Positions 7,764-43,003 of a stretch of DNA of 64,000 nucleotides are shown here, one piece after another. A model generated the notes under the pieces. That model saw only the letters and a program-made list of their open reading frames with translations. It searched no databases and was not told where the DNA came from. This DNA is from Natrialba asiatica DSM 12278 (GTDB lineage: Archaea; Halobacteriota; Halobacteria; Halobacteriales; Natrialbaceae): the NCBI RefSeq assembly GCF_000337555.1, contig NZ_AOIO01000007.1, positions 22,293 through 86,292 on the forward strand, written 5' to 3'. The position numbers were made by a program, and so were the translations under genes. Every line of letters starts with the position of its first letter. Within the stretch, counting starts at the first letter, position 1.

Positions 7764-7764
7764 G

Positions 7765-9943: not shown

Positions 9944-9957
9944 ATAATATATATTAT
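9944..9957 (-). promoter_or_regulatory. AT-rich palindromic promoter element before the permease operon
   Basis: ATAATATATATTAT, a perfect 14-bp palindrome, is the only strong TATA-like element between 10025 and the permease start. It would give a leader of about 25-30 bases to the ATG at 9896. Confidence 0.45.
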
Positions 9958-10024
9958 CATTTCGGCCGAATTCGGCGGGGGGTCGGAGACGAACCGTCTC
10001 GAGGTCGGGAGCTATCGTCCGGCG

Positions 10025-10219: not shown

Positions 10220-10307
10220 GCGAAACCGTTTGCATCGATGCTAATAAACGTTCGTCCAAGTCGGGACTGAACTCGAAACCGGCGGCAGCGTTCGACCGTC
10301 GCGGTCG

Positions 10308-12116: not shown

Positions 12117-12142
12117 ACTCCCTAATGTTGGAAGGTAGTACA

Positions 12143-12156
12143 TATAGTTAACTATA
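12143..12156 (-). promoter_or_regulatory. AT palindrome and TATA element of binding-protein gene 1
   Basis: TATAGTTAACTATA, a perfect 14-bp palindrome, is centred about 33 bases before the ATG at 12116. It overlaps the likely TATA box and could be an operator as well as a promoter. Confidence 0.45.
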
Positions 12157-12266
12157 AAAAATACAATATTCGTCTCGGCGACCGACGACGCTACCGCCGA
12201 GGGTGAACTCGCTTTTGATCTCCGGCCGTCCGTCGCTTCCAGCTTGCTGTCGACAGTCGGCGTCCG

Positions 12267-14081: not shown

Positions 14082-14204
14082 AGTCTCTACTGCCAGACAG
14101 TCGCACTTAACTTTACCCCGCACTCGGCCGGTGTCTCTCTCGACCGACTCGTCGCCCGGCTAACGCCGAAACGTTTTCCCACCGGTCCGTCCACTCCTCT
14201 ATCG

Positions 14205-20658: not shown

Positions 20659-20818
20659 GGTACCGCACCCCGAGAAACAACACAACTCCATAAATAATTT
20701 TTCCTGAAAATAACCAATACCTACCAACTCTCGGACTCAGTTTACGTCGTTGCTTCGGTATCGAAGGGTGAACCAGCTGGACGGGTGTACCAGAACGGCG
20801 ATCTGCGGCGGCGAACGA

Positions 20819-21541: not shown

Positions 21542-21592
21542 GCCCACGGTGTTTCCGGCGATTCGGGATAAGTCCTCCGCCCCGCTGTACGG

Positions 21593-22711: not shown

Positions 22712-22927
22712 GGAACCGACCTCCACACAACTTGTATTAAATCTACTCATTTGGCGAGAAAGATATGTTTCGTCCGGCTCCACGCCCGTTGGGCAGCGCG
22801 GGGCAGACTCCACCGACACGATGGACTCGAGCGGGTCACCGCGGCGTTCAGTCCTGCTCGAAACCTATTCGGCCGAATCCGCCGTGCCCTCCGTTCTCGG
22901 AACGACGAGAAACCGACCGAACGACGG

Positions 22928-23863: not shown

Positions 23864-23954
23864 ACTCCTTCGGAGAGAGATCAGCATTCTGTAAAAGTGT
23901 TCGGTTCGCCGGTCCCCGCTCGCCGAACTCGTCTCACCGTTCGCAACGGCCCCT

Positions 23955-23971
23955 GTTCCCTTCTGGGGAAC
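23955..23971. promoter_or_regulatory. Putative IclR-type operator, copy 4
   Basis: GTTCCCTTCTGGGGAAC, with six perfect arm pairs. It is identical in all 17 bases to the copy in front of the IclR gene (37328-37344), which is strong evidence that the two promoters share a regulator. It lies about 58 bases upstream of the TATA-like element of the KdgD-like gene. Confidence 0.65.
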
Positions 23972-24269
23972 ATTACAGGAGTACAAACGTAATTGCCGCT
24001 GTGAGTCGCCGGAACGCCTTACGAACGAACGAGATTACGTCTACCCCTCTTCGGAGTTACCGACCGTCACTCTCACTTTTGCTCCCTCTAGCCAACTATA
24101 CCGCCCTGAAACGACCGATTTGGAGCAGCAGAATCCAATTCGCGGTTGCGTTCGATCGTCGTCGTTGAACTCGCCGCTTCTGAAGTCGCGAAACGCTATG
24201 AAACGAACTGTTAGTCGCTGCTACACCGTGGTATTGTCTCACGGTAATTTCTTTCTCGCATCACATATC

Positions 24270-25815: not shown

Positions 25816-26949
25816 ATGGAGATTACGGATATTCGCGCGATTCCGCTCGCTCATTCGCTCCCCGAGGGCCGCGGACTCGGCGATGCGCGGGGATTCGGAA
25901 CCGATCGCGGAACGACGTTGGTGCGACTGGAGACCGACGACGGAACCGTCGGCTGGGGCGAGGCGTTCGCCCCCGGACCGATCGCGACGGCGACCGTCGA
26001 GGAACTGTTCGCCGACGACGTGCTCGGGATGGACCCGTTCGCCGTCGAGTCGCTCGCCGACCGCTCCTACACCGATCCCTACCACTTCGGCGGCGACGTG
26101 TTCGTCCAGAGCGCGGTCAGCGCGATCGACGTCGCCTGCTGGGACATCATCGGAAAATCCGTCGGCCGACCGATTCACCGCCTGCTCGGCGGGACGCAGT
26201 GCTCGGAGTTGACGCCGTACGCGTCGACGATGTACTTCACCGAGGCGGATCGTCCGATCGAAGATCCGATCCGCGTGGCCGTCGTGGAAGGATTTACCGC
26301 CGCGAAAATCAAGATCGGGTCCGGGATCGCGGACGATATCGAACGCGTCAGGACGGCGCGGGAGATCCTCGGCCCCGACACCGACCTGATGGTCGACATG
26401 AACGGCAACTACCGCCCCCATCAGGCGCTCGAATCCGCGCGGGCCATCGCGGAGTACGACGTGACCTGGATCGAGGAACCGGTGCCGCCGGAGAACCGGT
26501 CGGGCTACCGCGAGCTTCGGTCCAAAATCGATACTCCCATCGCGGCCGGCGAAGCCCACTACGGGCGGTTCGAGTTCAAGGAACTGATCGACGACCGAAC
26601 GGTCGACATCGTCCAGCCGAATCTCGGTCGCTGCGGCGGGCTCTCCGAGGCGCGGTTGATCGCCGGCATGGCGTCGACCGAGAACGTCGCCGTCAGACCC
26701 CACATCTGGAACAGCGCCGTCGGCATGGCCGCCGCAATCCAGTTCGCCGCCAGCATCTCGTCGTACCCCAACACGCGCCACGTTCCCGAACCGATGCTGA
26801 TCGAGTTCGACCGCAGCGAGAACCCGCTGCGAAGCGACTTGCTCGAGACGCCGTTCGATCCGGCCGGTGGGACGATCACCGTTCCGCAGTCGCCAGGACT
26901 CGGGATCGATATCGACGAGGCGGCGCTCGAGCGGTATCGCGCCGACTGA
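25816..26949 (+). CDS. Enolase-superfamily enzyme, possible galactarolactone cycloisomerase or dehydratase
   Basis: A 377-residue mandelate racemase-family protein, of a different subgroup from the preceding gene. It has TAAKIKIGSG (K-x-K), LMVDMNGNY (metal ligand), WIEEPVPPE, AGEAHYGRFEF and RPHIWNSAVG (His). Proteins with this layout include the galactarolactone cycloisomerases that convert the uronate dehydrogenase product directly to 5-keto-4-deoxyglucarate lactone forms. That would fit the nearby uronate dehydrogenase, but a dehydratase role is equally possible. It has its own TATA-like GCTATATTG about 27 bases upstream and a half-site GTTCCC just before that. Confidence 0.84.
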   Translation: MEITDIRAIPLAHSLPEGRGLGDARGFGTDRGTTLVRLETDDGTVGWGEAFAPGPIATATVEELFADDVLGMDPFAVESLADRSYTDPYHFGGDVFVQSAVSAIDVACWDIIGKSVGRPIHRLLGGTQCSELTPYASTMYFTEADRPIEDPIRVAVVEGFTAAKIKIGSGIADDIERVRTAREILGPDTDLMVDMNGNYRPHQALESARAIAEYDVTWIEEPVPPENRSGYRELRSKIDTPIAAGEAHYGRFEFKELIDDRTVDIVQPNLGRCGGLSEARLIAGMASTENVAVRPHIWNSAVGMAAAIQFAASISSYPNTRHVPEPMLIEFDRSENPLRSDLLETPFDPAGGTITVPQSPGLGIDIDEAALERYRAD

Positions 26950-27604: not shown

Positions 27605-27687
27605 GGTTCGGCTGGATCGGTACCGTGATGGAGTGAACGGTTGGCCGGACCGGTATTTTGATGGTGGCTCCGCGTGGGACTAGAGGC

Positions 27688-28548
27688 ATGGACGTACTAG
27701 TGACCGGTTCGTACGGCCGCTGTGGAACCGCGATCATCGATCACCTGCACGACGACGATCGGTACGAGTTCACCTACTACAACCGATCCGGACGGGACGA
27801 AGACGATCCCTACGGCGGCTACGAAACCGTTATCGGCGACATTGCGGACTACGAGACGCTTCGGGAGGCCTGTACCGGTCAGGACGCGATCGTTCACCTC
27901 GCCGCCTACCCCTACACCGACGGCGACTGGAGCGACATCTTCGAACCGAACGTCATCGGGATGTACAACGTGCTCGAGGCCGCTCGCGAGGCCGAAGTCG
28001 ACTCGGTCATTTTCGGCTCGACCAACCACGTGATGGGACAGTACGAACAGGAGTTCGCCCCCGACATCTACGACCGCCAGCACGAACTCGTGCTCGACCA
28101 CACGGACCCCGTGCGTCCGGATTCCTACTACGGAGCCTCCAAGAGTTTCGGCGAGGATCTGGGACGGTACTACGTCGAGGACTGTGCGTATCCGAACCGA
28201 TTCTACGCGCTTCGGATCTGCAGCGTCCGGATGCCGGAGTACGACCATCCCTACGGCGACGCCGAGGCGGGCGTCGAAAACGGCGAGTGGGAGCGCGGCA
28301 GCTCCGAGTACGAACGGGAGGTCGCGCGGATGAAAGCGACCTGGCAGTCACGCCGGGACTTCGCCCACCAGATCGAGTGCTGCCTGGCGGACGACCGCGT
28401 CGAGTTCGATATTTTCAGCGGCGTGAGCGACAACCGGCGGCGGTGGTTCGATCTCGAACACGCGCGCTCGGTTCTCGGCTACGATCCGCAGGACGACGGC
28501 GAGGAGTGGACCGCACCGCCGGAGTCCGTCGAGCAGCTGTCTCAGTAG
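27688..28548 (+). CDS. Uronate dehydrogenase (NAD-dependent)
   Basis: A 286-residue extended SDR. Features that fit uronate dehydrogenases are the Rossmann motif TGSYGRCG (6-13), LAAYP near 71, GSTNHVMG (110-117), the catalytic RPDSYYGASK (Y148, K152) and RICSVRMPEYD. The reaction is oxidation of galacturonate or glucuronate at C1 to the aldaro-lactone, the first step of the oxidative uronate pathway. Context supports it strongly: a lactonase, KdgD-like enzymes and 2-oxoglutarate semialdehyde dehydrogenase are all nearby. A TATA-like GTATTTTGA lies about 30 bases upstream. Its 3' end overlaps the convergent aldehyde dehydrogenase gene by seven bases. Confidence 0.87.
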   Translation: MDVLVTGSYGRCGTAIIDHLHDDDRYEFTYYNRSGRDEDDPYGGYETVIGDIADYETLREACTGQDAIVHLAAYPYTDGDWSDIFEPNVIGMYNVLEAAREAEVDSVIFGSTNHVMGQYEQEFAPDIYDRQHELVLDHTDPVRPDSYYGASKSFGEDLGRYYVEDCAYPNRFYALRICSVRMPEYDHPYGDAEAGVENGEWERGSSEYEREVARMKATWQSRRDFAHQIECCLADDRVEFDIFSGVSDNRRRWFDLEHARSVLGYDPQDDGEEWTAPPESVEQLSQ

Positions 28549-29993
28549 TTCATGTAAACCGTCTTCGTCGACGTGAAGAAGTCGAGGCCGGCGTCGCCCT
28601 GCTCGCGGTAGGTGTCCGTCGACGACTGTTTGTAGCCGCCGAAGGGAACGTGCAGTTCGAGGCCGGTCGTCTTCTCGTTGACCTTCGCGACGCCCGACTC
28701 GATCTCCTCGGTGAACCGGTGGGCCTCCGAAAGATCTTGCGTGACGATACTCGCCGAGAGGCCGTACTCCACGTCGTTTGCCACGTCGACGCCCGCCTCG
28801 AAACTGTCGACCTTCAGCACTGCGAGTACCGGTCCAAACACCTCTTCCTGGGCGATCCGCATGTCGCTCGTGACACCCGATACGACGGCCGGTTCGACGT
28901 AGTGGCCGTCCTCGTAGGCCCTCCCTTCGGGCTGGCGGCCGCCGGTCTCGAGGTTCGCGCCGTCTTCGGTCGCGATATCGACGTACTCGAGCGTCGACTC
29001 GAGTTCACTCTGCGTTACGTGGGGGCCCATATCGGGGTTCTCGAGGCCGGGACCGATTTCGATCGACGCGGCGTAGTCGACGATGCCCGCGACGAACTCG
29101 TCGTAGACGTCCTCGTGGACGATCGCTCGAGAGCAGGCGGTGCAGGCCTGTCCGGTGACGCCGAACGCGCCGGCCCCGACGATGTCGACCGCCTCGGCCA
29201 CGTCGGCGCTCGGCATGACGACGGTGGGGTTCTTGCCGCCCATCTCGCACTGCACGCGGGTCAGATCGTCGGCGGCGGCCTGCGCGACGCCCGTTCCGAC
29301 CGCCGTGCTGCCGGTGAACGAGACGCCGTCGATGTCCTCGTGTGACGCGAGCGTCCCCCCGACCTCGCTGCCCGAGCCGGTGACGTAGTTGGCGACGCCG
29401 TCGGGAAGTCCGGCGTCGTCGAGCGCCCCGAGGAGCTTCCGGGCGACCGTCGGCGCTGCGGAAGCCGGCTTTAGCACCGCCGTGTTCCCGGCTGCGAGCG
29501 CCGGCGCGAGTTTCCAGGCCGGAATCGCGATGGGGTAGTTCCAGGGGGTGATCAGCGCGACGGTTCCGAGCGGCTCGCGTTTGGTGTACAGTTCCGTATC
29601 CGTGCCGCTCGGCGATTTGACGGTGCCGCCGAGATCGCGGGCCTTCTCGGCGTAGTAGCAGAAGATATCGATCGCGCGCTGGACCTCGCCGCCGGCTTCG
29701 TCGAGCGTCTTGCCCTCCTCGCGCGCGAGCGTCTCGGTCAGTTCGTCCCGCTGCTCTTCGAGAATCCGGGCCGTCTCCGCGAGCACGTTGCCCCGTTCCG
29801 GCCCCGGCGTCGTCGCCCATTCCGTCTGTGCACCGACCGCAGCTTCGACCGCCGCGTCGGTATCTGCACTCGTCGAAGCCTGGAACTCCCCGACGATATC
29901 GCCCGTGTCGGCGGGATTCCGAACCTCGAACGTCTCGCCCGCACGCGATTCGATCCACTCGCCGTCGACGTAATTACGGTATGCTGTCGGCAT
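28542..29993 (-). CDS. 2-Oxoglutarate semialdehyde dehydrogenase (aldehyde dehydrogenase family)
   Basis: A 483-residue NAD(P)-dependent aldehyde dehydrogenase. Catalytic residues are visible: N152 (TPWNYP), E250 (CEMGGKNP) and C284 (GQACTA). The NAD-fold motif FTGSTAVG is at about 227. Length and motifs fit the XacF/KGSADH group, which oxidises 2-oxoglutarate semialdehyde to 2-oxoglutarate as the last step of oxidative pentose and uronate pathways, including the pentose pathway known in Haloferax. The ATG at 29993 begins the family alignment (NYVDGEW); the longer open frame is not family-like. The exact aldehyde is inferred from the neighbours. Confidence 0.88.
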   Translation of the reverse strand: MPTAYRNYVDGEWIESRAGETFEVRNPADTGDIVGEFQASTSADTDAAVEAAVGAQTEWATTPGPERGNVLAETARILEEQRDELTETLAREEGKTLDEAGGEVQRAIDIFCYYAEKARDLGGTVKSPSGTDTELYTKREPLGTVALITPWNYPIAIPAWKLAPALAAGNTAVLKPASAAPTVARKLLGALDDAGLPDGVANYVTGSGSEVGGTLASHEDIDGVSFTGSTAVGTGVAQAAADDLTRVQCEMGGKNPTVVMPSADVAEAVDIVGAGAFGVTGQACTACSRAIVHEDVYDEFVAGIVDYAASIEIGPGLENPDMGPHVTQSELESTLEYVDIATEDGANLETGGRQPEGRAYEDGHYVEPAVVSGVTSDMRIAQEEVFGPVLAVLKVDSFEAGVDVANDVEYGLSASIVTQDLSEAHRFTEEIESGVAKVNEKTTGLELHVPFGGYKQSSTDTYREQGDAGLDFFTSTKTVYMNY

Positions 29994-30191
29994 TCGGACT
30001 AGTGATTTCGCGTTTCCCGATACGAACGTTGGTCTTCCGGCAAAACTCTCCTCTCGCGCGACGATCCGCTGTGGCTGTGTTCTCTCTTTTTCTCTCGGCC
30101 GTCTTCGCGATGCTGACGGTGACGCGGTATCGCCGTTGGGTCGGCGACGAACCCGAATTACTTTATACGAGTATGCGTACCATTCGTGGTA

Positions 30192-30428
30192 ATGGAGGTC
30201 ACACAACAGACGGACGACTCGGAGTCGGTCGCACATCCCCGCGGAGTGCGGCGCGGATCGCTTCGGAACTCAATCCTGTTGAAACTCGCACTGCTAGGCG
30301 GACTGTTGATCGCACTCGGCGCGCTCATAAACGAAGGCGTCTGGGCCGCCGTTATCACCGTCTGGGGCGCTGGACTGGCACTTGTCGGCCTCGGCTTCTA
30401 CGGATTCATCTGGTGGCGACGCCGGTAA
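30192..30428 (+). CDS. Small membrane protein, unknown function
   Basis: A 78-residue protein with a charged N-terminus (about 25 residues) and two membrane helices (about 28-46 and 50-72), ending in WWRRR. A TATA box (CTTTATAC) is centred about 29 bases before the ATG at 30192, so it is likely transcribed. No family recognised. It is divergent from the aldehyde dehydrogenase gene and convergent with the DUF296 gene. Confidence 0.65.
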   Translation: MEVTQQTDDSESVAHPRGVRRGSLRNSILLKLALLGGLLIALGALINEGVWAAVITVWGAGLALVGLGFYGFIWWRRR

Positions 30429-30997: not shown

Positions 30998-32059
30998 CTA
31001 CCGCGGATCGAGAACCGTCACGCAGACCGGCTTCGGCACCGCGAGTTCAGCGCGCGCGTCGAGGCGTCCGTCGCCGTCGATCGCGAACGCGACGAGCGAG
31101 TCGCCGTGCTGATTGGCCGCAAGCAGGAACTCGCCACCGGGCGAGAGCGCGATGTCTCGGGGCGTTTCTCCACGCGTCGACTGGTGACCGATGCGTTCGA
31201 GACTCCCGCTCGCCCGGTCGACCGCGAAGACGGCGATGCTGTCGTGGCCCCGGTTCGAGACGTACACCCACCGGCCCGACGGGTGGACGCCAACGGCTGC
31301 GGGTGCGTTGTCTCCACCGAACTCCGAGGGGAGGGTGCTCGTCCGACCGACCGCCGTGAGCGCACCGGACTCGCGGTCGCGACTGAACTCGCTCACCGTC
31401 GACTCGAGTTCGCCGACGACGTAACAGACGGAGGCGGTCGGATGAAATGCGATCTGACGCGGTCCCGCCCCCGCACGGGCCGTTGCGGGCTCCGTTTCGG
31501 CCGCTTTCAGTTCGCCGGCGTCGGCGTCCGGGCGGTAGATCGCAATGCGATCCGTTCCGAGGTCGGGTGCGTAGCAGAACCGATTCCGCGGACCCGGTTC
31601 GATCGCGTGGGGATGCGGGGCTGACTGCCGGTCCTGATCCGGACCGGTCCCCTCGTGGCGGACGACATCGCTGGCCTCGCCCACCCGCCCGTCGGATTCG
31701 ATCGGAAACGCGGCGACGGTTCCGCCCCGGTAATTCGCCACGAACGCGTAGCGTCCGGTCGCATCGACGCTGACGTAACAGGGGGCGGCCCCCTCGCTCG
31801 AGCGCTCGTTGAGCCGCGACAGATCGCCGCAACCGTCGTTCAGTCGGTAGGCGACCAGTCGTCCGCCCGCCGCTCGCTCGACCGTGTAGAGACTCTTCCC
31901 GTCGGGGTGGACCGAAAGAAACGCCGGATTCGCCGCGGGAACTCGTGTGCGCTCCGTTACCGTTCCGTCGGCCGCCAACTCGATATCGACGATGCCGTCG
32001 CCGTTGCTCCCGGCCGAACAGACGAGTACGCGGATCGTCTCTCGTGTCCGTACGCTCAT
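30998..32059 (-). CDS. Seven-bladed beta-propeller lactonase (Pgl/YbhE family)
   Basis: A 353-residue lactonase-family protein related to 6-phosphogluconolactonase YbhE. Repeated propeller strands end in motifs such as FLSVHPDGKSLYTVE, YVSVDATGRYAFVANYRGG, AIEPGPRNRFCYAPDLGTDRI, GVHPSGRWVYVSNRG and LSPGGEFLLAANQHG. It has no signal peptide. In this locus the fitting substrate is the galactarolactone made by uronate dehydrogenase. The ATG at 32059 begins 12 bases after the Gfo/Idh/MocA gene stop, so the two form an operon; a GTG one codon earlier is possible. Confidence 0.87.
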   Translation of the reverse strand: MSVRTRETIRVLVCSAGSNGDGIVDIELAADGTVTERTRVPAANPAFLSVHPDGKSLYTVERAAGGRLVAYRLNDGCGDLSRLNERSSEGAAPCYVSVDATGRYAFVANYRGGTVAAFPIESDGRVGEASDVVRHEGTGPDQDRQSAPHPHAIEPGPRNRFCYAPDLGTDRIAIYRPDADAGELKAAETEPATARAGAGPRQIAFHPTASVCYVVGELESTVSEFSRDRESGALTAVGRTSTLPSEFGGDNAPAAVGVHPSGRWVYVSNRGHDSIAVFAVDRASGSLERIGHQSTRGETPRDIALSPGGEFLLAANQHGDSLVAFAIDGDGRLDARAELAVPKPVCVTVLDPR

Positions 32060-32071
32060 CACAACGCGGCG

Positions 32072-33124
32072 TTAGCCCAGTAGCGCGTCGTCTCCGAACG
32101 CGTACCGATCGGCGAGTTCGATGCGGTCGCCGGTGCGACCGGACTCGTACGCCGCCATCGTCACGACCAACGTTCGAAACGCGTCTCGAACCGAAATCGG
32201 CGGTTCCGTTCCCTCGAGCACCGATTCGGTGAACGCTTCGGCCTTGGTCCGTCGGCCGTGATAGTCGAGATACGGATCGTGCTTCGTTCCCTCCGCGTCG
32301 ATCGTGTAGCCGGTGCGTTCGTCCCACTCGCGGCCCTCGAGATACACCGCGCCGTCGTCGTCCCAGATGTGGATGTGTTCCCGGGTACACGCGACGATCC
32401 CCGTGTCCGAGACGGTGGCGAGCGCGCCGTTTGCGAACTCGATGGTGATCGACGATTGCGTGTCGAAGTACTGGTCGTCGTCGTGGAACTCTACGGTGGC
32501 GTCGACGCTGGTCGGCGTGAGGCCGGTTACCCAGAGAATAGCGTCGAGAACGTGTGAGCCAACGTTCAGGAGGTGACCGCCGCCGCTCAGTTCGGGGTCC
32601 ATTCGCCAGTCGTCCATGGTCTCGTAGTACGAGCGCCAGTCGTGGGTGATCTCGGCCGTGATCGATGTCGGGTCGTTGTTGCCCGTCGCCCACCGTTCGC
32701 GGGCCATGATGAACGCGGGGTTCAGGTGACGCTGGTAGCCGAGCATCACCACTCGATCGGTCTCCTGCTCGCGTTGATAGAGTTCAGCCGCGTCGTCGAC
32801 GGCCGTCGCCAGCGGCTTTTCACAGAGGACGTGCAGGTCGCGGTCGAGCGCGGCCAGGATCTGTTCGTAGTGCAGGCCGTTCGGGGTGGCGATTGCCGCC
32901 GCATCGAGGGTGGCCTCGTCGAGCATCGTTTCGTAGTCCGCGTATTGGGCCGACTGCGGAACGTCTAATTCGCGGCCCGCATCGGCGAGGTTCGGTTCGT
33001 TGATGTCGGCCAAGGCGACCAATTCGGCGTTCGGGACGGTTTCGAACTGCCGGCCGAGTCGGACGCCGAGGCTGCCGAGTCCGACGAGTCCGACGCGAAG
33101 CGGCGATTCGGATGGGTCAACCAT
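32072..33124 (-). CDS. Gfo/Idh/MocA-family oxidoreductase
   Basis: A 350-residue NAD(P)-dependent sugar oxidoreductase. The N-terminal Rossmann motif GLVGLGSLG, the CEKPLATAVDDA segment (catalytic lysine region), and the C-terminal alpha/beta domain with GGHLLNVGSHVLDAI (histidine of the active site) are present. The family oxidises or reduces sugars and inositols; substrate not readable. I prefer the ATG at 33124 because a TATA-like ATTATAC is about 33 bases upstream; an in-frame ATG at 33139 is only 18 bases from it. First gene of an operon with the lactonase. Confidence 0.87.
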   Translation of the reverse strand: MVDPSESPLRVGLVGLGSLGVRLGRQFETVPNAELVALADINEPNLADAGRELDVPQSAQYADYETMLDEATLDAAAIATPNGLHYEQILAALDRDLHVLCEKPLATAVDDAAELYQREQETDRVVMLGYQRHLNPAFIMARERWATGNNDPTSITAEITHDWRSYYETMDDWRMDPELSGGGHLLNVGSHVLDAILWVTGLTPTSVDATVEFHDDDQYFDTQSSITIEFANGALATVSDTGIVACTREHIHIWDDDGAVYLEGREWDERTGYTIDAEGTKHDPYLDYHGRRTKAEAFTESVLEGTEPPISVRDAFRTLVVTMAAYESGRTGDRIELADRYAFGDDALLG

Positions 33125-33283
33125 GTCGTAATCACGCATACAGGTAAATAGCGTATAATTGTTTTGTTCGGTGGGTGTTTGCCGTCTCTTGTGGCGCGGT
33201 CTTGCCCTGCAGTCCTGCAGCCGGTTCGTCGTGGTCGGTGATCGCGGTGACCGGTGATGCCGGACTAGGGGAGCGCTCAGCGG

Positions 33284-34852
33284 TCAGTCCAGATCGAGCC
33301 GCACATCGCTCCCATCGTCGATTTCGATCGAGTCGGCCAGCGAACCGTGGTTGCCCGCCAGCGAAATCGTGTCGGTCTTCGGACCGCTCGCGCGCAGGAA
33401 CTGTCCGTCCGACGGCGCGGTACAGCCGCTCACGCGGGTGCGCTCGGCGTTCGAAAGTGAGAGAGCGGGTTCGTCGGATGAGGCGGATGAGTCCGCGGAG
33501 CGTTGCACATCGAGTCCGTCGATGGTTACGTCGTCGGTTTCTTCGACGCGCAGTGCAGGGCTGTCGGGCGTTCGGAGTTCGACGTTCCGAAACGAGATGT
33601 CGGCGATGGACTTGCAGAACAGGCCGTGGGTCTGCTCGTAGCCGTCGGCCATCGCGGGATCGAGGTCCGTCGCATCGAGCGATCTGGTTGCGTCGATCCG
33701 CACGTCGCGAAACGAGATGCCCTCGAAGTACCGCTCGGGGAGTCCGGCGAAGAAGCCGGCGGTCTCGACGTTGCGGGCGGTAATATTGCTGAACGAGACG
33801 TTGCGGACCAGCGGCGTCCCCTCGTCGATCGGTTCGGGATCGCTGTCCAACGGGGTGAAGTAGTAGCCGTTGATGACGAACGGACACGCGATGCGGCGCA
33901 TGACGATCTGGTCGAATCGCAGGTCCTCGACGACGCCACCGCGGCCTCGCTGGGTCTTGATCCGGATCCCGCGGTCGGTGTCGGTGAACGTGCAGTTCGT
34001 CACCGTCACGTCCCGGACGTCGCCGGACATCTCGCTGCCGATGACGACGCCGCCGTGACCGGCCTCGACGGTGCAGTTCGTGACCGTGATCTGCGAGGCC
34101 GGTTCGCCGACCTCACGCCCCTCCGCGTCCTTCCCGGATTTGATGCAGATCGCGTCGTCGCCCGCGTTGATGTACGCATCGCTGATCCGGACGTACCGCG
34201 AGGAGTCGATGTCGATCCCGTCGCCGTTCGGCGCGCCGGCCGGGTTTTCGATGTTCACGTCGGTGATCGTCACGTTCTCCGAGTAGACGACGTGCGTGTT
34301 CCAGAACGGCGAGTTCCGTAGCGTCACGCCCGAGACGGTGACGTTCTCGGCGTCGAAAACCTGGAGCAGCGGCGGCCGGTGCGTGAAACTGCTCACGTCA
34401 TCTTGCTTGTCGTTTTGCGCCTCGAACTCGGCCAGTCGGTCCTGCAGTCCGTCGGGAAGCGTCGATTCCGGTTCGCCGTAGAACTGCCACCAGTACTCGC
34501 CGTTCCCGTCGATCGTTCCCCGACCGGTAATCGAAACGGTGTCGGCTCCATCGACCAGCAGGCACGGGTGGAAGCCGACCTGATCCCACCCCTCCCAGCG
34601 ACTCTTTACCGTCGGGAACGCCTCGTAGTCGCCGACGAATCGCAGTGTCGCTCCAGCCTCCAGATGAAGCGTCGTCCGATCGCCGACGCGAAGCGGACCC
34701 GTCACGTACGTTCCCGGGGGAACGGACACCGTTCCGCCGGTTCCGGCACACTCGTCGAGCGCCGTCTGAATCGCCTCGGTATTGGAATCGTCGGACCCAC
34801 TCTGTGCGCCGAACTCGCGGATGTCGTATCGGCCCGTGTCGGGGACTGCCAT
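33284..34852 (-). CDS. GH28 polygalacturonase, apparently cytoplasmic
   Basis: A 522-residue glycoside hydrolase family 28 protein (right-handed beta-helix). The GH28 catalytic set is seen: the NGDGIDIDSS block (the NxD motif), NAGDDAICIKSG (the two adjacent aspartates), VEAGHGGVVIGSEMSG (GHG histidine) and RIKTQRGRGG (RIK substrate-binding motif). There is no Tat or Sec signal at the chosen ATG (34852), so it should act inside the cell on imported oligogalacturonides, most likely as an exo-enzyme. A TATA-like GTTTATTTT is about 26-30 bases upstream. It follows the GH4 gene by 74 bases on the same strand. The last 60 residues lack GH28 similarity. Confidence 0.93.
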   Translation of the reverse strand: MAVPDTGRYDIREFGAQSGSDDSNTEAIQTALDECAGTGGTVSVPPGTYVTGPLRVGDRTTLHLEAGATLRFVGDYEAFPTVKSRWEGWDQVGFHPCLLVDGADTVSITGRGTIDGNGEYWWQFYGEPESTLPDGLQDRLAEFEAQNDKQDDVSSFTHRPPLLQVFDAENVTVSGVTLRNSPFWNTHVVYSENVTITDVNIENPAGAPNGDGIDIDSSRYVRISDAYINAGDDAICIKSGKDAEGREVGEPASQITVTNCTVEAGHGGVVIGSEMSGDVRDVTVTNCTFTDTDRGIRIKTQRGRGGVVEDLRFDQIVMRRIACPFVINGYYFTPLDSDPEPIDEGTPLVRNVSFSNITARNVETAGFFAGLPERYFEGISFRDVRIDATRSLDATDLDPAMADGYEQTHGLFCKSIADISFRNVELRTPDSPALRVEETDDVTIDGLDVQRSADSSASSDEPALSLSNAERTRVSGCTAPSDGQFLRASGPKTDTISLAGNHGSLADSIEIDDGSDVRLDLD

Positions 34853-34926
34853 CGTCTGCCTATTTCGCAGTACGAAAATAAACGTTGCGTCGTCGGCGAT
34901 TCGTGACCGAGGTTCTATCGCTCTCC

Positions 34927-36366
34927 TTACGGACGCCGATCGGGTCCCGTCTCGAGAATCGCCGCGTTCTCTCTGTCCCACGCATCAAGGAACTCGCGTT
35001 CGCGCTCGACGAGTTCACTGAAGAGGGATTCGGCCGCCTCCCGCTCGAGAGTCACGAGGGGGTCGGAGAGGAATACCCGGAACGCCCGGTCGAGGTCGCC
35101 GTCGAAGCCGGCCTCGACGAGCGTTTCCTGATTGTGGACGTGCGCGAGGACGAGCGACCGGAGCGACCGGGGAAGCGAGCCCGCGGTCAGCGGCGTGACG
35201 GCGTCACCGGTGAGCAACGCGTTCGTCTCGACGACGGCGCCGTCCGGCAGGTTGGCGACCTGTCCCCGGTTGGGATAGTTCAGGTGCGTTTCCAGGGGTT
35301 CGAGCCCGAGCAGCGCCCGGATGATGTCGACGGCTTCCTCGCCGGATTCGGTGAGTTCGAACGTCTCCGCCCCCGAGAGATACCGTTCCGTCGGCGTCGG
35401 TCCGTCGGCCGGAAGCCGCGCTTCGCTCGGCGTCAATCGGATTCCCCACCGGTGGAGTTCGTCGGGATCGTCGAGTTCGAGATACCACGGGACGAACTCG
35501 ACGAGGTGGCGGTCGCCGGCAGCGGGGAAGCAGCCGAACCGGTCGTAGAGGTCAAACGCGACGCGGTAGTTGTTGGTCCAGTAGGATGCGTCGGCCATCG
35601 AACCGGGATCGAAGTCGGCAAGCGGCGTTCGGGCCGCGAGTTCGGCGTCGAGGAACCGATAGAGGTCGCGGCCACGCCAGCGGGCCTCGTCGACCCACGT
35701 GAAGTGGTTGATTCCCTTGACGGTGACGTGAACCTCGTCCGGATCGACGGCGTCGACCCCGTCGAGGTGCGTCGCCGCGAGTTCGGCGAACAACTCCTGC
35801 GTTTGAAACACCTCGTGACAGAGGCCGATGGCTTTGATCTCGGGGAACTCTTCGTAGAGGGTGCGGGTGCAGACGGTCATCGGGTTCGTGTAGTTGAGCA
35901 CCCATGCATCGGGACACTGTTCGCGGATCGTCGCCGCGATTTCTCGGTACTGTGGAATCGCCCGCATCGAGCGCAGGATGCCGCCGGGGCCGACGGTATC
36001 GGCGACCGGCTGGTGGATGCCGTACTGCTTGGGCAGGTCGATGTCGTGGACGAACGTCTCCGCCGGCGGGTCCTGGATCGAGCAGATGACGATATCCGCG
36101 CCCGAGAGCGCGGCGGACAGGTCCCGAACCGCGTCGAACGTCCAGTCCCCGTCGGCGTCCGCGCGATCCGTTACCTGCGTTCCGAGTTCGGCGTTCTTCC
36201 TCGCGGCCTCGTAGTCGACATCGTACAGCGCAACGGTGCCGGCGATGTCCGTACACTGCGCGAGGTCGTTGATGAGGGTGTGCGCCCAGCCCTGACTGCC
36301 GCCGCCGATGTAGCCGATCCGAACTTCCGGAATTGCGTCGCTCGACCGTCTGCCGAGGTGATGCAT
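34927..36366 (-). CDS. GH4 alpha-galacturonidase
   Basis: A 479-residue glycoside hydrolase family 4 protein, a NAD- and metal-dependent enzyme that cleaves by a redox-elimination mechanism. The Rossmann motif IGYIGGGSQGW (17-27), LNYTNPM (158-163) and the diagnostic GLCHEV are present; CHEV occupies residues 183-186. That CHEV motif is reported as the signature of alpha-galacturonidases within GH4, distinct from CHSV alpha-galactosidases and CHG-type glucuronidases. No signal, so cytoplasmic, matching GH28 next to it. The ATG at 36366 is chosen over a GTG three codons earlier. Expected job: releasing galacturonate from short oligogalacturonides. Confidence 0.9.
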   Translation of the reverse strand: MHHLGRRSSDAIPEVRIGYIGGGSQGWAHTLINDLAQCTDIAGTVALYDVDYEAARKNAELGTQVTDRADADGDWTFDAVRDLSAALSGADIVICSIQDPPAETFVHDIDLPKQYGIHQPVADTVGPGGILRSMRAIPQYREIAATIREQCPDAWVLNYTNPMTVCTRTLYEEFPEIKAIGLCHEVFQTQELFAELAATHLDGVDAVDPDEVHVTVKGINHFTWVDEARWRGRDLYRFLDAELAARTPLADFDPGSMADASYWTNNYRVAFDLYDRFGCFPAAGDRHLVEFVPWYLELDDPDELHRWGIRLTPSEARLPADGPTPTERYLSGAETFELTESGEEAVDIIRALLGLEPLETHLNYPNRGQVANLPDGAVVETNALLTGDAVTPLTAGSLPRSLRSLVLAHVHNQETLVEAGFDGDLDRAFRVFLSDPLVTLEREAAESLFSELVEREREFLDAWDRENAAILETGPDRRP

Positions 36367-36456
36367 ACGTCTCACCCGAACGGAACGCGCAAAAGCGTTG
36401 GTGATTGGGGTCGAAACTGCCGGCTCTCCTCCTAATGGACCGGCTGTACCTCGCGT

Positions 36457-36890: not shown

Positions 36891-37378
36891 CGTGCCTGGT
36901 ACCCAGTCCAGCGGTCGGTATTTGTTCGTTCCGGTGAGTTCTCCCCTGCTGGTTTCCGTTACGGCTATTATCGATTACCCTTCGTTTCTCTCCCCGAGAG
37001 CAGTGAGTTCCCGCTCGCCGAATATTGACAAGCGTACTGTTGTAATGAATGTGCGGAAACATTTCAATCGTACACTTGTAAATGATATCGACCGGTCCTC
37101 ACGTAGTAGTGTCGAATAGCGGCACTGTAGCGCTTCTACACACTGAATACGCCGTTTATCCGGTGTTCAGATCTGTTCGCGAGACGGGAATGACGACCGG
37201 TTCAGCGATACTGTGTCGGACGACGTTGTGGGTGTCGGCCTGCGACGGGCGGTCCGCTAACAGGGACGGACGAACGCACCCAGCGAGTAGTCAGTGCTGG
37301 ATCGATCGATCCAGACGACCCATTTTGGTTCCCTTCTGGGGAACAGACTTATAATGCTGAACTATGATACCACTTTGT
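36891..37378. promoter_or_regulatory. 488-base control region upstream of the IclR gene
   Basis: No gene is visible. It contains AT-rich patches near 37020-37085 and the exact operator copy and TATA element in front of the IclR gene. Confidence 0.5.
37328..37344. promoter_or_regulatory. Putative IclR-type operator, copy 7 (autoregulatory position)
   Basis: GTTCCCTTCTGGGGAAC, identical to 23955-23971. It ends three bases before the TATA element (TTATAA, about 37349-37354) of the IclR gene, overlapping the BRE position, so binding here would directly affect transcription of the regulator itself. Confidence 0.65.
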
Positions 37379-38152
37379 ATGGCAAGCACCCCCAATAAAC
37401 GCACGGGACGGCGCATTCGGTCGGTCGAAATCGCATTTACGATTCTCGACGCCATCCGTGCGAACGAGGCGACGAGCGTTACCGAACTGGCCGACGAGCT
37501 CGGTCACTCCAAAAGCACCATCCACAGTCACCTTCGAACCCTCGAAAGTCAGGAGATCATCGTTCGGCAGGACGATGGCTACCGACTCAGTCTGCAACTC
37601 CTCGATATGGCAAACGACGTTCGAGAGCAGGTTGCAAACTACGAGGTCATCGTCGACGAAGTCGATAAACTGGCGTCCGAAACGGGCGAAATCGCCCACT
37701 TTGGGCTCGAAGAACACGGCAAAGTGGCCTACCTCTACAAGGCGATGGGTACGCAGGCCGTCGAAACGGTCTCGCGCCCCGGCGGCAAACAGCCGATGTA
37801 TTCGACATCGCTCGGGAAGGCCATCCTCGCCTTCCTCCCGGCCGACCGACGCCGAGAGATTCTCGAACACGTCTCGTTCGCCCCGAAAACGCCGAAAACG
37901 ATCACCGACCCCGAGCGCTTCGCTGATGAACTCGATGTCATCACCGACCAGGGGTACGCGATCGACGACGAGGAAAACATCGAGGGGCTCCGGTGTGTCG
38001 CCGCTCCCGTTAAAAACGAGAACACGGTCCTCGGCGCCGTCAGCGTCTCCGGTCCAGTGAGTCGCAGCACTGACGAGGTCCTCCACGGTGAACTCGCCGA
38101 AAGCGTGCAACGGACCGCCAACGTGATCGAACTCAATACCAAATTTTCCTAA
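37379..38152 (+). CDS. IclR-family transcriptional regulator
   Basis: A 257-residue regulator with an N-terminal winged helix (about 15-75; recognition part VTELADELGHSKSTIHSHL) and a C-terminal GAF-like effector domain (RPGGKQPMYSTSLGKAILAFLP; GYAIDDEENIEGLRCVAAPV). IclR proteins control catabolic genes by binding short palindromes; XacR of Haloferax is a haloarchaeal example for pentose oxidation. The ATG at 37379 is chosen because the TATA box is 25-30 bases upstream; an ATG at 37364 is too close. The 17-bp palindrome next to this TATA box recurs at the sugar-acid genes, so this is the probable regulator of the locus. The effector is probably a pathway intermediate. Confidence 0.92.
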   Translation: MASTPNKRTGRRIRSVEIAFTILDAIRANEATSVTELADELGHSKSTIHSHLRTLESQEIIVRQDDGYRLSLQLLDMANDVREQVANYEVIVDEVDKLASETGEIAHFGLEEHGKVAYLYKAMGTQAVETVSRPGGKQPMYSTSLGKAILAFLPADRRREILEHVSFAPKTPKTITDPERFADELDVITDQGYAIDDEENIEGLRCVAAPVKNENTVLGAVSVSGPVSRSTDEVLHGELAESVQRTANVIELNTKFS

Positions 38153-38286: not shown

Positions 38287-40392
38287 ATGACACATGATAG
38301 ACGGACGTTTCTGCAGACGGTCGGTGCAGGGAGTCTCGGCCTCGCGACAATACCGCTGTTCAGCGATACGGTTGCTGCAGCGACCCTCATCACGATCCGC
38401 GGCGGTGGCGCGGACATCTGGAACACGGAGGACGCGTTTCACTACTACCACGACGAGTTCAGCGGGGACATCGACGTTCGAGTGCGCAATACAGCGCTGG
38501 AACACACCGACCCGAACGCGAAGACCGGAATCATGGTTCGGGAGTCGCTGGCACCCGACGCGGCGAACGTGATGCTTCGCCGGACGCCGAACGGGGCGGT
38601 ATCGCTTCAGTGGCGTCCTGAATCCGGAGCCGAGACGGTGAGTACGACCTCCGGCGGCGAGGACGAGAGCGAGGTCGACGGCGGCAGTCTCGAGGCCGAG
38701 TGGCTGCGATTGTGCAGGCGCGGCGACACCTTCGAAGCGTACGGGTCGTCCGACGGGGACGACTGGACGCTCCTCGCCGACATCGATACGGAGCAGGTCG
38801 CGATAAGCGACGAGGCGTCCGTCGGGATCCCGGTTACGAGCCACTCCGTCGGCGAGCGCTGTACCGCCGAACTACGCGATCTAACGGGAATTTCGCCGAC
38901 CGGGAATCAGGATATCGGCGACGTTGCTGTCTCCGGCGGCGTCGACGTCGAAACCGGCGTCCCGTTCGTCACGACTGGCGACGCCACGGACGTGACGGCG
39001 ACCTCGGCGACGCTCCACGGCGAACTGACGGATCTCGGCGGTGCCGATTCGGCCGAGTGCTACGTCGAGTATCGGGCCGTCCCGAACGATTCCTGGACGG
39101 CGACCCGGGGACAGACGCTCGAGGAGCCGACCGCGTTCAGCGTGGACCTCGACGGACTCACGAGCAGGCGCTACTACGAGTATCGAACGGTCGTCGAAAC
39201 GAGCGATGGCGACGTGGCGGTCGGTTCGCCCGCGACGGTCGGAACGCCGAGTCGTTCGAACGGTACCGCTCCCGGCCGCGGCCCGCAAAGCGCATCGCAG
39301 ATCGATCTCGCCGACGGGTTCGCCGACCCGGCACCGTGGCTCGACGACGACACGCCGGTCATCCCGATCACGGAGCCGACGCGACGCCAACTAACGGCCG
39401 CGCTCGAGGTCGACGGCCCTCGCCTGGTCGTCTTCGAGACCAGCGGCGTCATCGACCTCGAACAACAGCGCCTCACCGTCGCCACCGACGAACTCTACCT
39501 CGCCGGCCAGACGGCTCCCTCGCCGGGCATCACGCTCATCAAGGGTGACCTCTGGATCGATGCCAACGACTGCGTGATCCAACACCTCCGCGTTCGACCG
39601 GGCGATGCCAACCTGACGAGCGAAAGCGACTGGGAGCCGGACGGCATTCGAACCGAAGACGGCACCGAGAACAACGTCATCGACCACTGTACGGCGACCT
39701 GGGCGGTCGACGAGAACCTCTCCGTCGGCTACGACACCGCCGAAACGACCGTCTCGAACTGTCTGATCGCCGAACCGCTCCAGGACGCCACCCACCACAA
39801 GGGCGACCACGGCTACGGCTCGCTGATCGGCGACGGCGCCGACTCCGTCACGCTCGCCGGGAACGTCTGGGCGCACAACTACGACCGGAATCCGCGACTC
39901 AAACAGGGAACGCACTCCGTCGTCGCGAACAACCTCGTCTACCACTACAACGACGGCATCTGGATGGACCCCGAAACGACGGCGAGCATCGAGGGCAACG
40001 TCTTCCGACGCCCGGTCGCTGCCCAACCGGTCGTCTTCGGCGACGGCCACGCCTTCGTCGCCGATACCGTCCTCGACGACGCGTCGAATCCCATCGTCGG
40101 CGACGGGATCACCGAACTCGACTCACGGCCGCTCTGGCCCGCTGCACTGGAGCCCCTCGAGTCGGCGGCCGTCGTCGATCACAACCTCGCCAACGCCGGC
40201 GCGCGACCGGCCGACCGCACCGCCACCGACGAGCGAATCCTCGCCCAACTCGACGCCGGCGACGGGACCTACATCGACAGCCAGTCGGAAGTCGGCGGCT
40301 ATCCCGACCTCCCGGTTCGGACGCGCCCGATCTCCGTTCCTCAGAGCGGGACGCGCGCCTGGCTTCGAGCGAAAGCCCGCGCCGTCGAATAG
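38287..40392 (+). CDS. Secreted multidomain pectate lyase
   Basis: A 701-residue exported protein. Residues 1-32 are a Tat signal (DRRTFLQTVGAGSLGL). About 35-200 form a beta-sandwich of the kind seen in secreted hydrolases (DIWNTEDAFHYYHDEFSGD, AKTGIMVRESL). About 225-320 resemble a fibronectin type III domain (VTATSATLHGELTDLGG, YYEYRTVVET). About 345-701 are the catalytic beta-helix, paralogous to the lyase at 18952: VFETSGVIDLEQQ, LAGQTAPSPGITLIKG, NNVIDHCTATWAVDENL, GNVWAHNYDRNPRL. It lacks the ricin tail of its paralog. It follows the IclR gene by 134 bases on the same strand. Confidence 0.91.
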   Translation: MTHDRRTFLQTVGAGSLGLATIPLFSDTVAAATLITIRGGGADIWNTEDAFHYYHDEFSGDIDVRVRNTALEHTDPNAKTGIMVRESLAPDAANVMLRRTPNGAVSLQWRPESGAETVSTTSGGEDESEVDGGSLEAEWLRLCRRGDTFEAYGSSDGDDWTLLADIDTEQVAISDEASVGIPVTSHSVGERCTAELRDLTGISPTGNQDIGDVAVSGGVDVETGVPFVTTGDATDVTATSATLHGELTDLGGADSAECYVEYRAVPNDSWTATRGQTLEEPTAFSVDLDGLTSRRYYEYRTVVETSDGDVAVGSPATVGTPSRSNGTAPGRGPQSASQIDLADGFADPAPWLDDDTPVIPITEPTRRQLTAALEVDGPRLVVFETSGVIDLEQQRLTVATDELYLAGQTAPSPGITLIKGDLWIDANDCVIQHLRVRPGDANLTSESDWEPDGIRTEDGTENNVIDHCTATWAVDENLSVGYDTAETTVSNCLIAEPLQDATHHKGDHGYGSLIGDGADSVTLAGNVWAHNYDRNPRLKQGTHSVVANNLVYHYNDGIWMDPETTASIEGNVFRRPVAAQPVVFGDGHAFVADTVLDDASNPIVGDGITELDSRPLWPAALEPLESAAVVDHNLANAGARPADRTATDERILAQLDAGDGTYIDSQSEVGGYPDLPVRTRPISVPQSGTRAWLRAKARAVE

Positions 40393-40989: not shown

Positions 40990-41074
40990 CGACGGGTTCG
41001 GGTCTACGGACACCCGCGACTCGCCTCTCTCCTCGACCCAAATATTAATCATCCCGAACGACACCACACGAGGT

Positions 41075-43003
41075 ATGTTCGAGCTAGCGGCGCAGCACTC
41101 GATCGGTCGGCCGCCCGAGTGGGCGCTCTTGCAACGAGAACTGTTCGAGACGATGGCGGACGCCGTTGACCGCTTCGTCGACGAGTACGTCGACGAGAAC
41201 GGCGAACCGTACTGGCCACCCAGGGGCTACACCGGCGTCGATGGGTTCGACGACGTGCTCGAGGGATTCTACAACTGGCCGCTCGTCTACGCGCTGGGCG
41301 GCGACGAGCGATTTCTCGAACACGCCCAGGATGTCTATGCGGGCGCGCTTCGACGCGGGAGGAACACTGACACCCCGTTCGGTCACCCGATGGTCGTCGA
41401 CGAGTTCGAGCAGTGTCGCGACTGGTTTCACCTGGGGGAGGGAAATCTCTTTACGTACAACATGGGCCTTGCAGCGCCGACTGACGAGACCGTCGTCGAC
41501 CGCGCGGAACGGTTCGCTCGGTTGTATCTCGATACCGACGACGAGGCGGACGCGGGGAACTACGACGGCGAGCGGCGACTCGTCCGCGGGCCGATGAACG
41601 GTAGTATGGGGCCGGATCGCTGCGATTTTTCCGCGTACGAACACCACCCCTACGGGGCCGAGTACCGCTGGGCGAGCCACGGTCTGCCGTGGCGTGATCT
41701 CGAGTTCGACGAGGCGGCCGAACTGTGCGACCCCGACAACGAGGAGCGACTGTTCGAGGTGCTCGACGAGCGGTGTTCGAAGGGGGATATTCCGCTCAAT
41801 CTCAACGTGACGAGCCTGATGACGAACGCCTACCTCCACACCGGCGAGGCCCGGTATCGCGAGTGGGTCCTCGAGTATCTCGAGGCGTGGCGCGAGCGGA
41901 CGGCCGAAAACGGCGGCATCATTCCGGACAACGTCGGTCGGTCGGGTGAGATCGGGGAGTACACTGACGGCTCGTGGTACGGCGGCTATTACGGCTGGTC
42001 GTGGGGCGGGTGGCACTACGTCGGCATCGGGCCGACGGTCGCCGCGGAGAACGCCGTGTTGCTCACCGGGGATCGGGAGCATCTGGCGTTTCCGCGGTCG
42101 CAACTCGACGTGTTGATCGAGAACGGAATCGAGGTCGCCGAGGATTCGGTCCACGAGACGCTGTACGTTCCGCACAAGTACGGCGGTCCCGGCGATTACC
42201 ACTACGACGCCTCGGGCGTCCTGACCGAGAACGACGGGGAGGTGCTGTGGCGCGACGGGTGGTACGAGTTCAAGCCGCACCGGGACGATCCGTACGTCTT
42301 TCACCTCTGGTATCTGTCCCTGTCGGAAGCGGATCGGGAGCGGGTCGATCGACTTCGCGACTGGGGGTCACGGGACTGGACGCAGGTCGACTACCGGCCG
42401 TCGAACAAGCACGGTGCAGGCCAGGAGTACGCCTGGTTGGCGTACCTCGATGGGGAGTTTCCGGACTATCCCCAGCGGCGGCTGGAAGCGAGCCACGCCC
42501 ACGTACAGGACCGCCTCGCGCTCATGCGCGAGGAGGGCGGGGTCCCGGACGATGTCGACGAGGATTACCTTCGCGACCGGAATCCGATCGTTCACCGCGG
42601 ACTACTCCAGTTGACGATGGGTGCCCCACAGCCGGTCTATTACGGCGGGCTCGTGATGGCGCAGCTTCGCCACTTCGACCCCGAGCGGGAGCGGCCGGGA
42701 CTGCCGCCCGGCGTCGCCGCGCTGGTCGAGAACGTGACCCGGGACGGCGTGACGCTGACGCTGGTTAACGTCGGTGGACGGGACCGCGACGTGATCGTCC
42801 AGGCCGGCGCGTACGGCGAACACGAGTTCGCGGCGATAGAACTCGAGGACGAACGGGTACGTCCTGAGTCGACGTGCGTTCGGGTGTCGCTCCCGAGCGG
42901 AACGCGGCTCACGGTCGCGGCGTCACTCGATCGATTCGTCACTGAGCCGTCCTACGCGCTGCCGTGGACCCGGTCATGTCGGTCGCGAGTTCGGGATGAG
43001 TGA
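41075..43003 (+). CDS. 642-residue protein, possible (alpha/alpha)6-barrel polysaccharide enzyme
   Basis: I do not recognise a family. The first 550 residues look like a chain of paired helices with aromatic-rich loops (EGFYNWPLVYALGGDERFLE, LFTYNMGLAAPTD, YGGYYGWSWGGWHYVGIG, HKYGGPGDYHYDASG), the style of alpha/alpha-barrel glycoside hydrolases and lyases. The last 90 residues switch to beta-strands (VENVTRDGVTLTLVNVGG ... LPSGTRLTVAASL), as in the C-terminal sandwich of such enzymes. It has no signal peptide, so it would act in the cytoplasm. The position next to the pectin genes makes a role on an imported oligosaccharide plausible. An AATATTAAT element is about 30 bases upstream of the ATG at 41075. 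Confidence 0.75.
   Translation: MFELAAQHSIGRPPEWALLQRELFETMADAVDRFVDEYVDENGEPYWPPRGYTGVDGFDDVLEGFYNWPLVYALGGDERFLEHAQDVYAGALRRGRNTDTPFGHPMVVDEFEQCRDWFHLGEGNLFTYNMGLAAPTDETVVDRAERFARLYLDTDDEADAGNYDGERRLVRGPMNGSMGPDRCDFSAYEHHPYGAEYRWASHGLPWRDLEFDEAAELCDPDNEERLFEVLDERCSKGDIPLNLNVTSLMTNAYLHTGEARYREWVLEYLEAWRERTAENGGIIPDNVGRSGEIGEYTDGSWYGGYYGWSWGGWHYVGIGPTVAAENAVLLTGDREHLAFPRSQLDVLIENGIEVAEDSVHETLYVPHKYGGPGDYHYDASGVLTENDGEVLWRDGWYEFKPHRDDPYVFHLWYLSLSEADRERVDRLRDWGSRDWTQVDYRPSNKHGAGQEYAWLAYLDGEFPDYPQRRLEASHAHVQDRLALMREEGGVPDDVDEDYLRDRNPIVHRGLLQLTMGAPQPVYYGGLVMAQLRHFDPERERPGLPPGVAALVENVTRDGVTLTLVNVGGRDRDVIVQAGAYGEHEFAAIELEDERVRPESTCVRVSLPSGTRLTVAASLDRFVTEPSYALPWTRSCRSRVRDE

Follow-up and report, generated by a model that had tools for sequence, protein, structure and literature searches.

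We analyzed a 64,000-nucleotide stretch of the Natrialba asiatica DSM 12278 genome (the window), which lies on contig C7 of a 4.4-Mb host genome and carries a set of genes from pectin-related enzyme families together with the gene for a 642-residue protein (the target protein). The features are listed with positions in the window and the strand.

5460 to 14123, −: dipeptide-type ABC importer (ATPase, 5460 to 7763; permease-like gene, 8904 to 9914; solute-binding protein, 10308 to 12143; likely second copy, 12267 to 14123)
21593 to 22819, −: pectin methylesterase
22928 to 23986, −: DHDPS-family protein, KdgD/aldolase-like (below the KdgD cutoff)
25816 to 26949, +: enolase-superfamily enzyme, possibly of the galactarolactone cycloisomerase type (Pfam; PDB 4ggb/4hpn, E 4.7e-70)
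27658 to 28548, +: uronate-dehydrogenase-like SDR (PDB matches include the uronate dehydrogenases 3rft and 6mfh)
28542 to 30236, −: 2,5-dioxovalerate dehydrogenase (NCBIfam NF052305, above its cutoff)
30998 to 32062, −: 7-bladed lactonase
32072 to 33139, −: Gfo/Idh/MocA oxidoreductase of a conserved module (adjoins GH28 and ABC genes in L123, L124, L126, and L127)
33284 to 34981, −: GH28 polygalacturonase
34927 to 36375, −: GH4, alpha-galacturonidase type (Pfam GH4; best PDB sequence match, the alpha-galacturonidase 3fef, E 8.9e-119)
37364 to 38152, +: IclR-family regulator
38287 to 40392, +: beta-helix protein, pectate-lyase type (Pfam Beta_helix; 77% identical to the L063 copy; H. turkmenica counterpart annotated as pectate lyase)
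41036 to 41051, +: conserved upstream element
41075 to 43003, +: target protein (ATG start, 642 residues; predicted helical barrel at about residues 15 to 515 and predicted C-terminal beta-sandwich at about 531 to 620)

Within the importer, the ATPase and the first binding protein have Pfam matches; the permease-like gene and the second binding protein were assigned by similarity only. The structure 4ggb, matched by the enolase-superfamily protein, is presumably a galactarolactone cycloisomerase. Judged from their sequences, the window genes together would encode an oxidative galacturonate route, and the Gfo/Idh/MocA oxidoreductase may perform an unassigned step. The gene for this oxidoreductase also adjoins GH28 in genomes that have neither the target nor GH88/105 or PL22. 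Of the reference genes, the one most often found near the target (19 of 33 loci) encodes a ThuA-family protein (20819 to 21547), and it also lies close to the form of the module that has PL2 (L127). Inside the pectin locus, positions 18952 to 20727 encode a likely exported protein with a ricin-type beta-trefoil lectin domain, homologues of which occur in three Halosimplex loci (L014, L019, and L028).

The target gene is conserved in haloarchaea

An earlier note on this DNA, made from the letters alone, had described a 642-residue protein at 41075 to 43003, and the ORF is present there with a coding-type composition (third-position GC, 0.82; Asp plus Glu, 19%). Full-length relatives with 65 to 96% identity occupy 26 haloarchaeal loci, the closest (96%) being those of Natrialba taiwanensis and N. 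aegyptia. Because such full-length relatives recur across haloarchaea, the ORF is real, well beyond chance. The protein is present at full length in 28 of 391 Halobacteria genomes from 13 genera, and fragments occur in three more (G144, G164, and G270), which we excluded from the 28 carriers. We used three alignments: A1, with the window and all 26 loci; A2, with 16 chosen members; and A3, with the window and 21 of those 26 loci. No signal peptide was seen on the target protein by eye, in agreement with the earlier note.

Upstream of the gene, 39 bases 5′ of the ATG, lies the element ACCCAAATATTAATCA (= ACCCAAATATTnAT). In 22 of 23 haloarchaeal loci, the best match to this unusually well conserved element falls 37 to 40 bases 5′ of the start codon. 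We had considered a palindromic motif that might act as a regulon signal, but it proved to be promoter-like and to keep a fixed distance from the start, and positions 41036 to 41051 are probably the core promoter of a leaderless or near-leaderless transcript. At three or fewer mismatches, the window contains four matches versus 2.58 expected. At two or fewer, the element is confined within the window to the position before the target gene and therefore provides no evidence of coregulation.

The protein matches no modeled family

Searches of Pfam and NCBIfam with the target protein gave no match at an E value of ≤1. When 16 diverse members were searched at an E value of ≤10, nothing consistent emerged and all matches were to single members, the best being a Tat-signal model (E 0.054), a DUF (0.066), and a C5-epimerase domain (0.072). 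Comparison with PDB sequences, using the target singly (phmmer) and as a profile (hmmsearch), yielded chance matches only. The earlier statement that the protein matches no named family is therefore borne out for Pfam, NCBIfam, and PDB sequences.

The earlier note had also called for profile-profile comparison with GH88, GH105, GH127, and PL families, and we performed this with hhalign, using family profiles built from tblastn-cropped haloarchaeal members. The target scored between 0.7 and 4.2% against all five families compared, with no clear match: GH105, 2.9%; GH88-like, 2.0%; GH127, 0.8%; AGE, 4.2%; and PL2, 0.7%. As controls, GH105, GH88-like, GH127, and AGE were compared with one another, and five of the six pairings scored 13 to 87% (GH105 with AGE, 67%; GH105 with GH127, 27%; AGE with GH127, 87%), and the pair GH88-like and GH127 scored 2%. 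Since the target comparisons are negative while most of the families detect one another, its membership in any of the five is unsupported.

We rejected membership in these five families. Neither the target nor the 16 members matched the GH88/GH105 profile (PF07470), and the target likewise had no profile match to GH127 (PF07944), to AGE epimerases (PF07221), where 4.2% compares with 67 and 87% for AGE with GH105 and GH127, to PL2 (PF06917), or to PL22 oligogalacturonate lyase (PF14583). The genome that holds the target (G000) contains no PF06917 or PF14583 match. GH88, GH105, and GH127, which had been suggested as relatives, are thus not recognizable as such by sequence profile. The target might still have a remote common origin within the six-hairpin superfamily. 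The best reading is that it would form a new sequence family, judged against families with Pfam or NCBIfam models or PDB sequences; CAZy families lacking both lie outside this comparison. We found no description of the protein in the literature; the portion of PMC3102087 at hand lists the H. turkmenica pectin genes that neighbor it and leaves the target itself unnamed.

Predicted fold and invariant residues

Two AlphaFold models of the family, the second from the divergent member L025, were of low confidence (pLDDT, 61.6 and 57.4), the second being no improvement on the first. In both, 12 or more helices precede a C-terminal beta-sandwich. Six-hairpin carbohydrate enzymes gave the best structural alignments with both models. 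With either model, Foldseek found no match below an E value of 0.001, and the top rows for the first model were GH127/GH146 enzymes at nonsignificant E values of 0.05 to 0.2. VIA-align placed the barrel of these low-confidence models near GH76, AGE epimerases, GH47, GH127/146, and, once, UGL, with Z scores up to 8, and placed the C-terminal end near the C-terminal beta-sandwiches of glycosidases. The UGL match was 2fv0 with the second model (Z 7.1; 213 residues; root mean square deviation, 4.9). PL2 is absent from the structural neighbor lists and UGL is present once, which carries no weight either way for either family. As a reading of the fold, an alpha/alpha barrel of six hairpins plus a C-terminal beta-sandwich is suggestive only, because the models are weak (these pLDDT values, no Foldseek E value below 0.001, and Z scores of at most 8). 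The helical barrel and C-terminal beta domain proposed earlier thus find support, but from two low-confidence predictions.

In the 16-member alignment, the invariant polar positions include D56, D59, D60, E63, D116, H119, E122, D238, R275, D420, R532, D535, E582, and H583, and many Trp residues are also invariant. Two motifs stand out, DGxDDxxE (residues 56 to 63) and DWxHxxE (residues 116 to 122), and the invariant Asp/His/Glu/Trp motifs are kept from archaea to Proteobacteria. No catalytic residue of the target could be assigned by homology.

The target gene accompanies pectin genes

GH28 (PF00295) occurs in 42 of the 391 Halobacteria genomes. Of these, 33 score at least 129 bits, a threshold chosen after the scores had shown a break between 129.6 and 90.8 bits. 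Each of the 28 full-length carriers of the target has a high-scoring GH28, compared with 5 of 363 noncarriers (Fisher P = 5e-38, ignoring kinship); counting any GH28 match without a threshold, the figures are 28 of 28 and 14 of 363 (P = 1e-32). The two genes are on the same contig in 25 of the 28 genomes and within 50 kb of each other in 24. The 10-kb flanks, some of which are shortened by contig ends, hold a homologue of the window's GH28, GH4, pectate-lyase-type, or methylesterase gene at 21 of 26 loci. Five loci have none of these four genes in the flanks (L005, L012, L020, L021, and L026), and against the pectin reading, the flanks of L020 are also devoid of homologues of the other reference genes, 25 in all. 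The link between the target and pectin genes is very strong, and the co-occurrence in other genomes that the earlier note proposed as a check is present. Neither outcome that the earlier note had named as refuting its idea arose: no known family matched clearly, and the pectin link holds in other genomes.

The fragmentary targets lie at G270:C3:284641-286250, G144:C4:238857-248539, and G164:C63:116788-117422, in genomes without a high-scoring GH28, and those in G270 adjoin fragments of a pectate-lyase-type gene; all three look like decayed pectin modules. In N. taiwanensis (L003; G230:C32:36281-37032), the pectate-lyase-type gene beside the target is reduced to fragments.

PL2 in genomes without the target

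Five genomes have a high-scoring GH28 and no target (G056, G100, G311, G379, and G258). The GH28 of G258 is isolated and divergent. The other four have the cluster of PL, GH28, Gfo/Idh, and binding-protein genes, as well as ABC genes where the stretch reaches, with a PL2 pectate lyase close by that shows no signal peptide by eye. Haloarchaeal PL2 matches solved PL2 enzymes. PL2 is found in 10 of the 391 genomes (including the loci L123, L124, L126, and L127), all 10 of which have a high-scoring GH28; the split PL2 of G356 (L137 and L138) was counted as present and left out of the PL2 alignment. Because six of these genomes also carry the target, the two proteins are not strictly exclusive. PL2 occurs in 4 of 5 high-GH28 noncarriers versus 6 of 28 carriers (P = 0.021); the four noncarriers belong to three genera, and a hand count by genus gives a P value of about 0.06 to 0.16. 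In Yersinia, the PL2 enzyme PelW is cytoplasmic, and its gene shares an operon with those of TogMNAB, an ABC transporter for oligogalacturonides, according to the available part of PMC5559549. Partial interchangeability of the target with PL2 would be the best reading of this distribution, although the genomes behind it are few. Against this explanation, two genomes with PL2 only (G056 and G100) have no target, high-scoring GH4, GH88/105, or PL22, which leaves the steps after PL2 unaccounted for.

The earlier note had remarked that a cytoplasmic enzyme for unsaturated or branched oligogalacturonides was missing from its list, and this was partly verified: the window genome has no match to PF07470, PF14583, or PF06917. 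Among the 28 carriers, PF07470 is absent from 8, PL22 is absent from 15, and both are absent from 5 (G000, G118, G230, G321, and G350). Four carriers have neither GH88/105 nor PL22 nor PL2; these are three Natrialba genomes (G000, G230, and G350) and G321, which also has no high-scoring GH4. GH88/105 is present in eight of the nine genomes that have only a low-scoring GH28 and no intact target, the exception being G315, a combination suggestive of a separate module.

Bacterial relatives

By tblastn, 17 of 72,556 plasmid records contain the target protein, and 12 of the 17 are haloarchaeal. The bacterial homologues, all from this plasmid collection, are nearly full length, with about 30 to 38% identity overall (Nonomuraea, 37%; two Streptomyces, 36 to 37%; Asticcacaulis, 32%; Sphingobium, 30%), and repeating the search with three bacterial members returned the same 17 records plus insignificant matches. 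Three scans of viral contigs revealed no distant relatives, and among 100 genomes of the phylum only the window's own contained the target. The Asticcacaulis and Sphingobium homologues start with an apparent export signal, judged by eye, and the other members do not; the cellular location therefore differs between lineages, and the protein is apparently cytoplasmic in archaea and Actinomycetota.

In both alphaproteobacteria, an MFS transporter gene is directly upstream. In Asticcacaulis this is followed by a divergent KdgD gene (above the NCBIfam cutoff), with a dgoD-like dehydratase and a TonB receptor near, and in Sphingobium a KdgD above the cutoff is near. A cupin gene near the Asticcacaulis homologue was considered as KdgF and rejected, as it matched generic cupins only. 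The Nonomuraea neighbors are an enolase, a DHDPS, an acetyl-xylan-esterase-like protein, a GH29-like fucosidase, and beta-helix proteins; those in Streptomyces strain NBC_01450 are a PL9-like beta-helix protein with CBM6 and sugar ABC genes; and S. mirabilis has a sugar-binding protein. The common thread of these contexts across phyla would be transport, depolymerization, and uronate catabolism.

Proposed function and alternatives

We propose, with a probability of about 0.6, that the target protein is an intracellular enzyme that cleaves pectin fragments (oligogalacturonides); we infer both substrate and chemistry, and the proposal includes an unsaturated galacturonyl hydrolase as one form. 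Secreted pectate lyases and GH28 would cut homogalacturonan, and the dipeptide-type ABC importer would take the fragments into the cell. There the target protein would shorten the imported oligogalacturonides, with an active site in the alpha/alpha-barrel cleft lined by DGxDDxxE (56 to 63) and DWxHxxE (116 to 122). GH4 would next remove saturated galacturonate, and the monomers would pass through the uronate-dehydrogenase, cycloisomerase, KdgD-like, and 2,5-dioxovalerate-dehydrogenase route.

The evidence does not decide between a lyase and an unsaturated-uronyl hydrolase. Exo-type cleavage equivalent to that of PL2/PelW (beta-elimination) is favored because PL2 stands in the target's place, and by this analogy it would be the likeliest chemistry, if still a tentative choice. 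A hydrolase is favored because unsaturated ends must be dealt with. As a special case of the broad proposal and a rival to the lyase form, a GH88/GH105-like unsaturated galacturonyl hydrolase would hydrate the 4,5 double bond and free the unsaturated end, with GH4 digesting the rest. The pectate-lyase-type genes of the module should yield such ends, eight carriers (the window genome included) have no PF07470, GH88/105 accompanies low-scoring GH28 in eight of nine genomes as if there were one such enzyme per module, and UGL 2fv0 is among the neighbors of the second model. Yet 20 of the 28 carriers also have PF07470, hhalign gives 2.9% to GH105 and 2.0% to GH88-like proteins, and the five high-GH28 genomes without the target are also without PF07470, which ill suits a strict GH105 substitute; we consider this form rather doubtful. 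The cytoplasmic oligogalacturonide enzyme of the earlier note thus stands as the best reading, on the link with pectin genes, and the earlier interpretation is supported in part. A specificity for unsaturated or branched substrates would be one option; the strongest functional hint, PL2 in four of the five exceptions, points equally or more to exo-lyase-type cleavage.

Action on another pectin linkage, whether in side chains, in decorations of xylogalacturonan or rhamnogalacturonan-II, or in branched fragments, would fit the many hydrolases of this kind hosted by the six-hairpin fold (GH127, GH146, and GH76) and the fucosidase and esterase-like genes near the Nonomuraea homologue. We think it unlikely, as the near-perfect partner of the target is a high-scoring GH28, usually with GH4, rather than a GH105/PL22 set, and none of the 20 window genes scanned matches GH43, GH51, GH2, or any similar family of side-chain hydrolases. 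Less probable again is a noncleaving, AGE-like or C5-epimerase-like enzyme that isomerizes or epimerizes a uronate, a keto-uronate, or the end of an oligosaccharide. AGE epimerases rank high among the structural neighbors and give the highest hhalign value (4.2%), and 1 of 16 members matched a C5-epimerase C-terminal model (E 0.072), but none of these values rises above noise, the target differs from AGE in size and in its predicted C-terminal beta-sandwich, and the window's galacturonate route has no need of a further epimerase. That the gene has no enzymatic role in pectin use, encoding a sugar-binding or regulatory protein or merely hitchhiking, would accord with the failure of at least one carrier to grow on pectin: in the available part of PMC9726719, Natronoglomus AArc-m2/3/4 (L024) shows no growth on pectin, polygalacturonate, or rhamnogalacturonan, a result that also counts against the main proposal. 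We regard the lack of an enzymatic role as very improbable, since the tight co-occurrence, the 65 to 96% conservation, and the invariant Asp/His/Glu/Trp motifs suit an enzyme.

Archaeal pectin use is little studied, and the same enrichment study, as far as its available part goes, never isolated a pectin-growing haloarchaeon, though the genomes carry pectin enzymes (PMC9726719). The target family accompanies 28 of the 33 high-scoring GH28 genes and PL2 accompanies 4 of the other 5, which makes the cleaving enzyme proposed here a single candidate for the conversion of imported pectin fragments to smaller uronates. Confirmation would establish a new CAZyme family, and proteins now labeled hypothetical could be annotated. 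In its fullest form, the proposal is of an unclassified carbohydrate-active family of haloarchaea, Actinomycetota, and Alphaproteobacteria that cleaves oligogalacturonides in cells, replaces PL2 in most haloarchaeal pectin modules, and may differ in chemistry from all described pectin enzymes; we rate this whole at somewhat below even odds.

Comparison with known systems

Several known enzymes resemble the target in part. The AGE (N-acylglucosamine 2-epimerase) and GH76 enzymes are among the best structural neighbors of its predicted barrel (Z 6 to 8), but the target has no profile match to AGE, and the profile-profile figure of 4.2% covers AGE and not GH76. The GH127/GH146 beta-l-arabinofuranosidases resemble the low-confidence target models in having a helical barrel and then a beta domain at the C terminus, and they supply the top, nonsignificant Foldseek rows of the first model, whereas profile matches are absent and the GH127 value is 0.8%. 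With GH88/GH105 the target may share a six-hairpin barrel, judged from the low-confidence models, and such an enzyme is expected in the pathway; the target differs in having no PF07470 match (hhalign, 2.0 to 2.9%) and a distribution that is not complementary to GH105. A parallel in role would be PL2 (PF06917; PelW/YePL2B, a cytoplasmic exopolygalacturonate lyase), which is intracellular, as the target probably is, lies beside an oligogalacturonide ABC importer, and occurs in the same haloarchaeal module in four of the five high-GH28 genomes without the target. The PL2 fold is an alpha/alpha barrel, as predicted for the target. The target is nevertheless the longer protein, with a predicted C-terminal beta-sandwich, and neither Pfam nor hhalign (0.7%) relates it to PL2. 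The kind of system is not new; what is probably new here is a sequence family of likely intracellular pectin-fragment enzymes.
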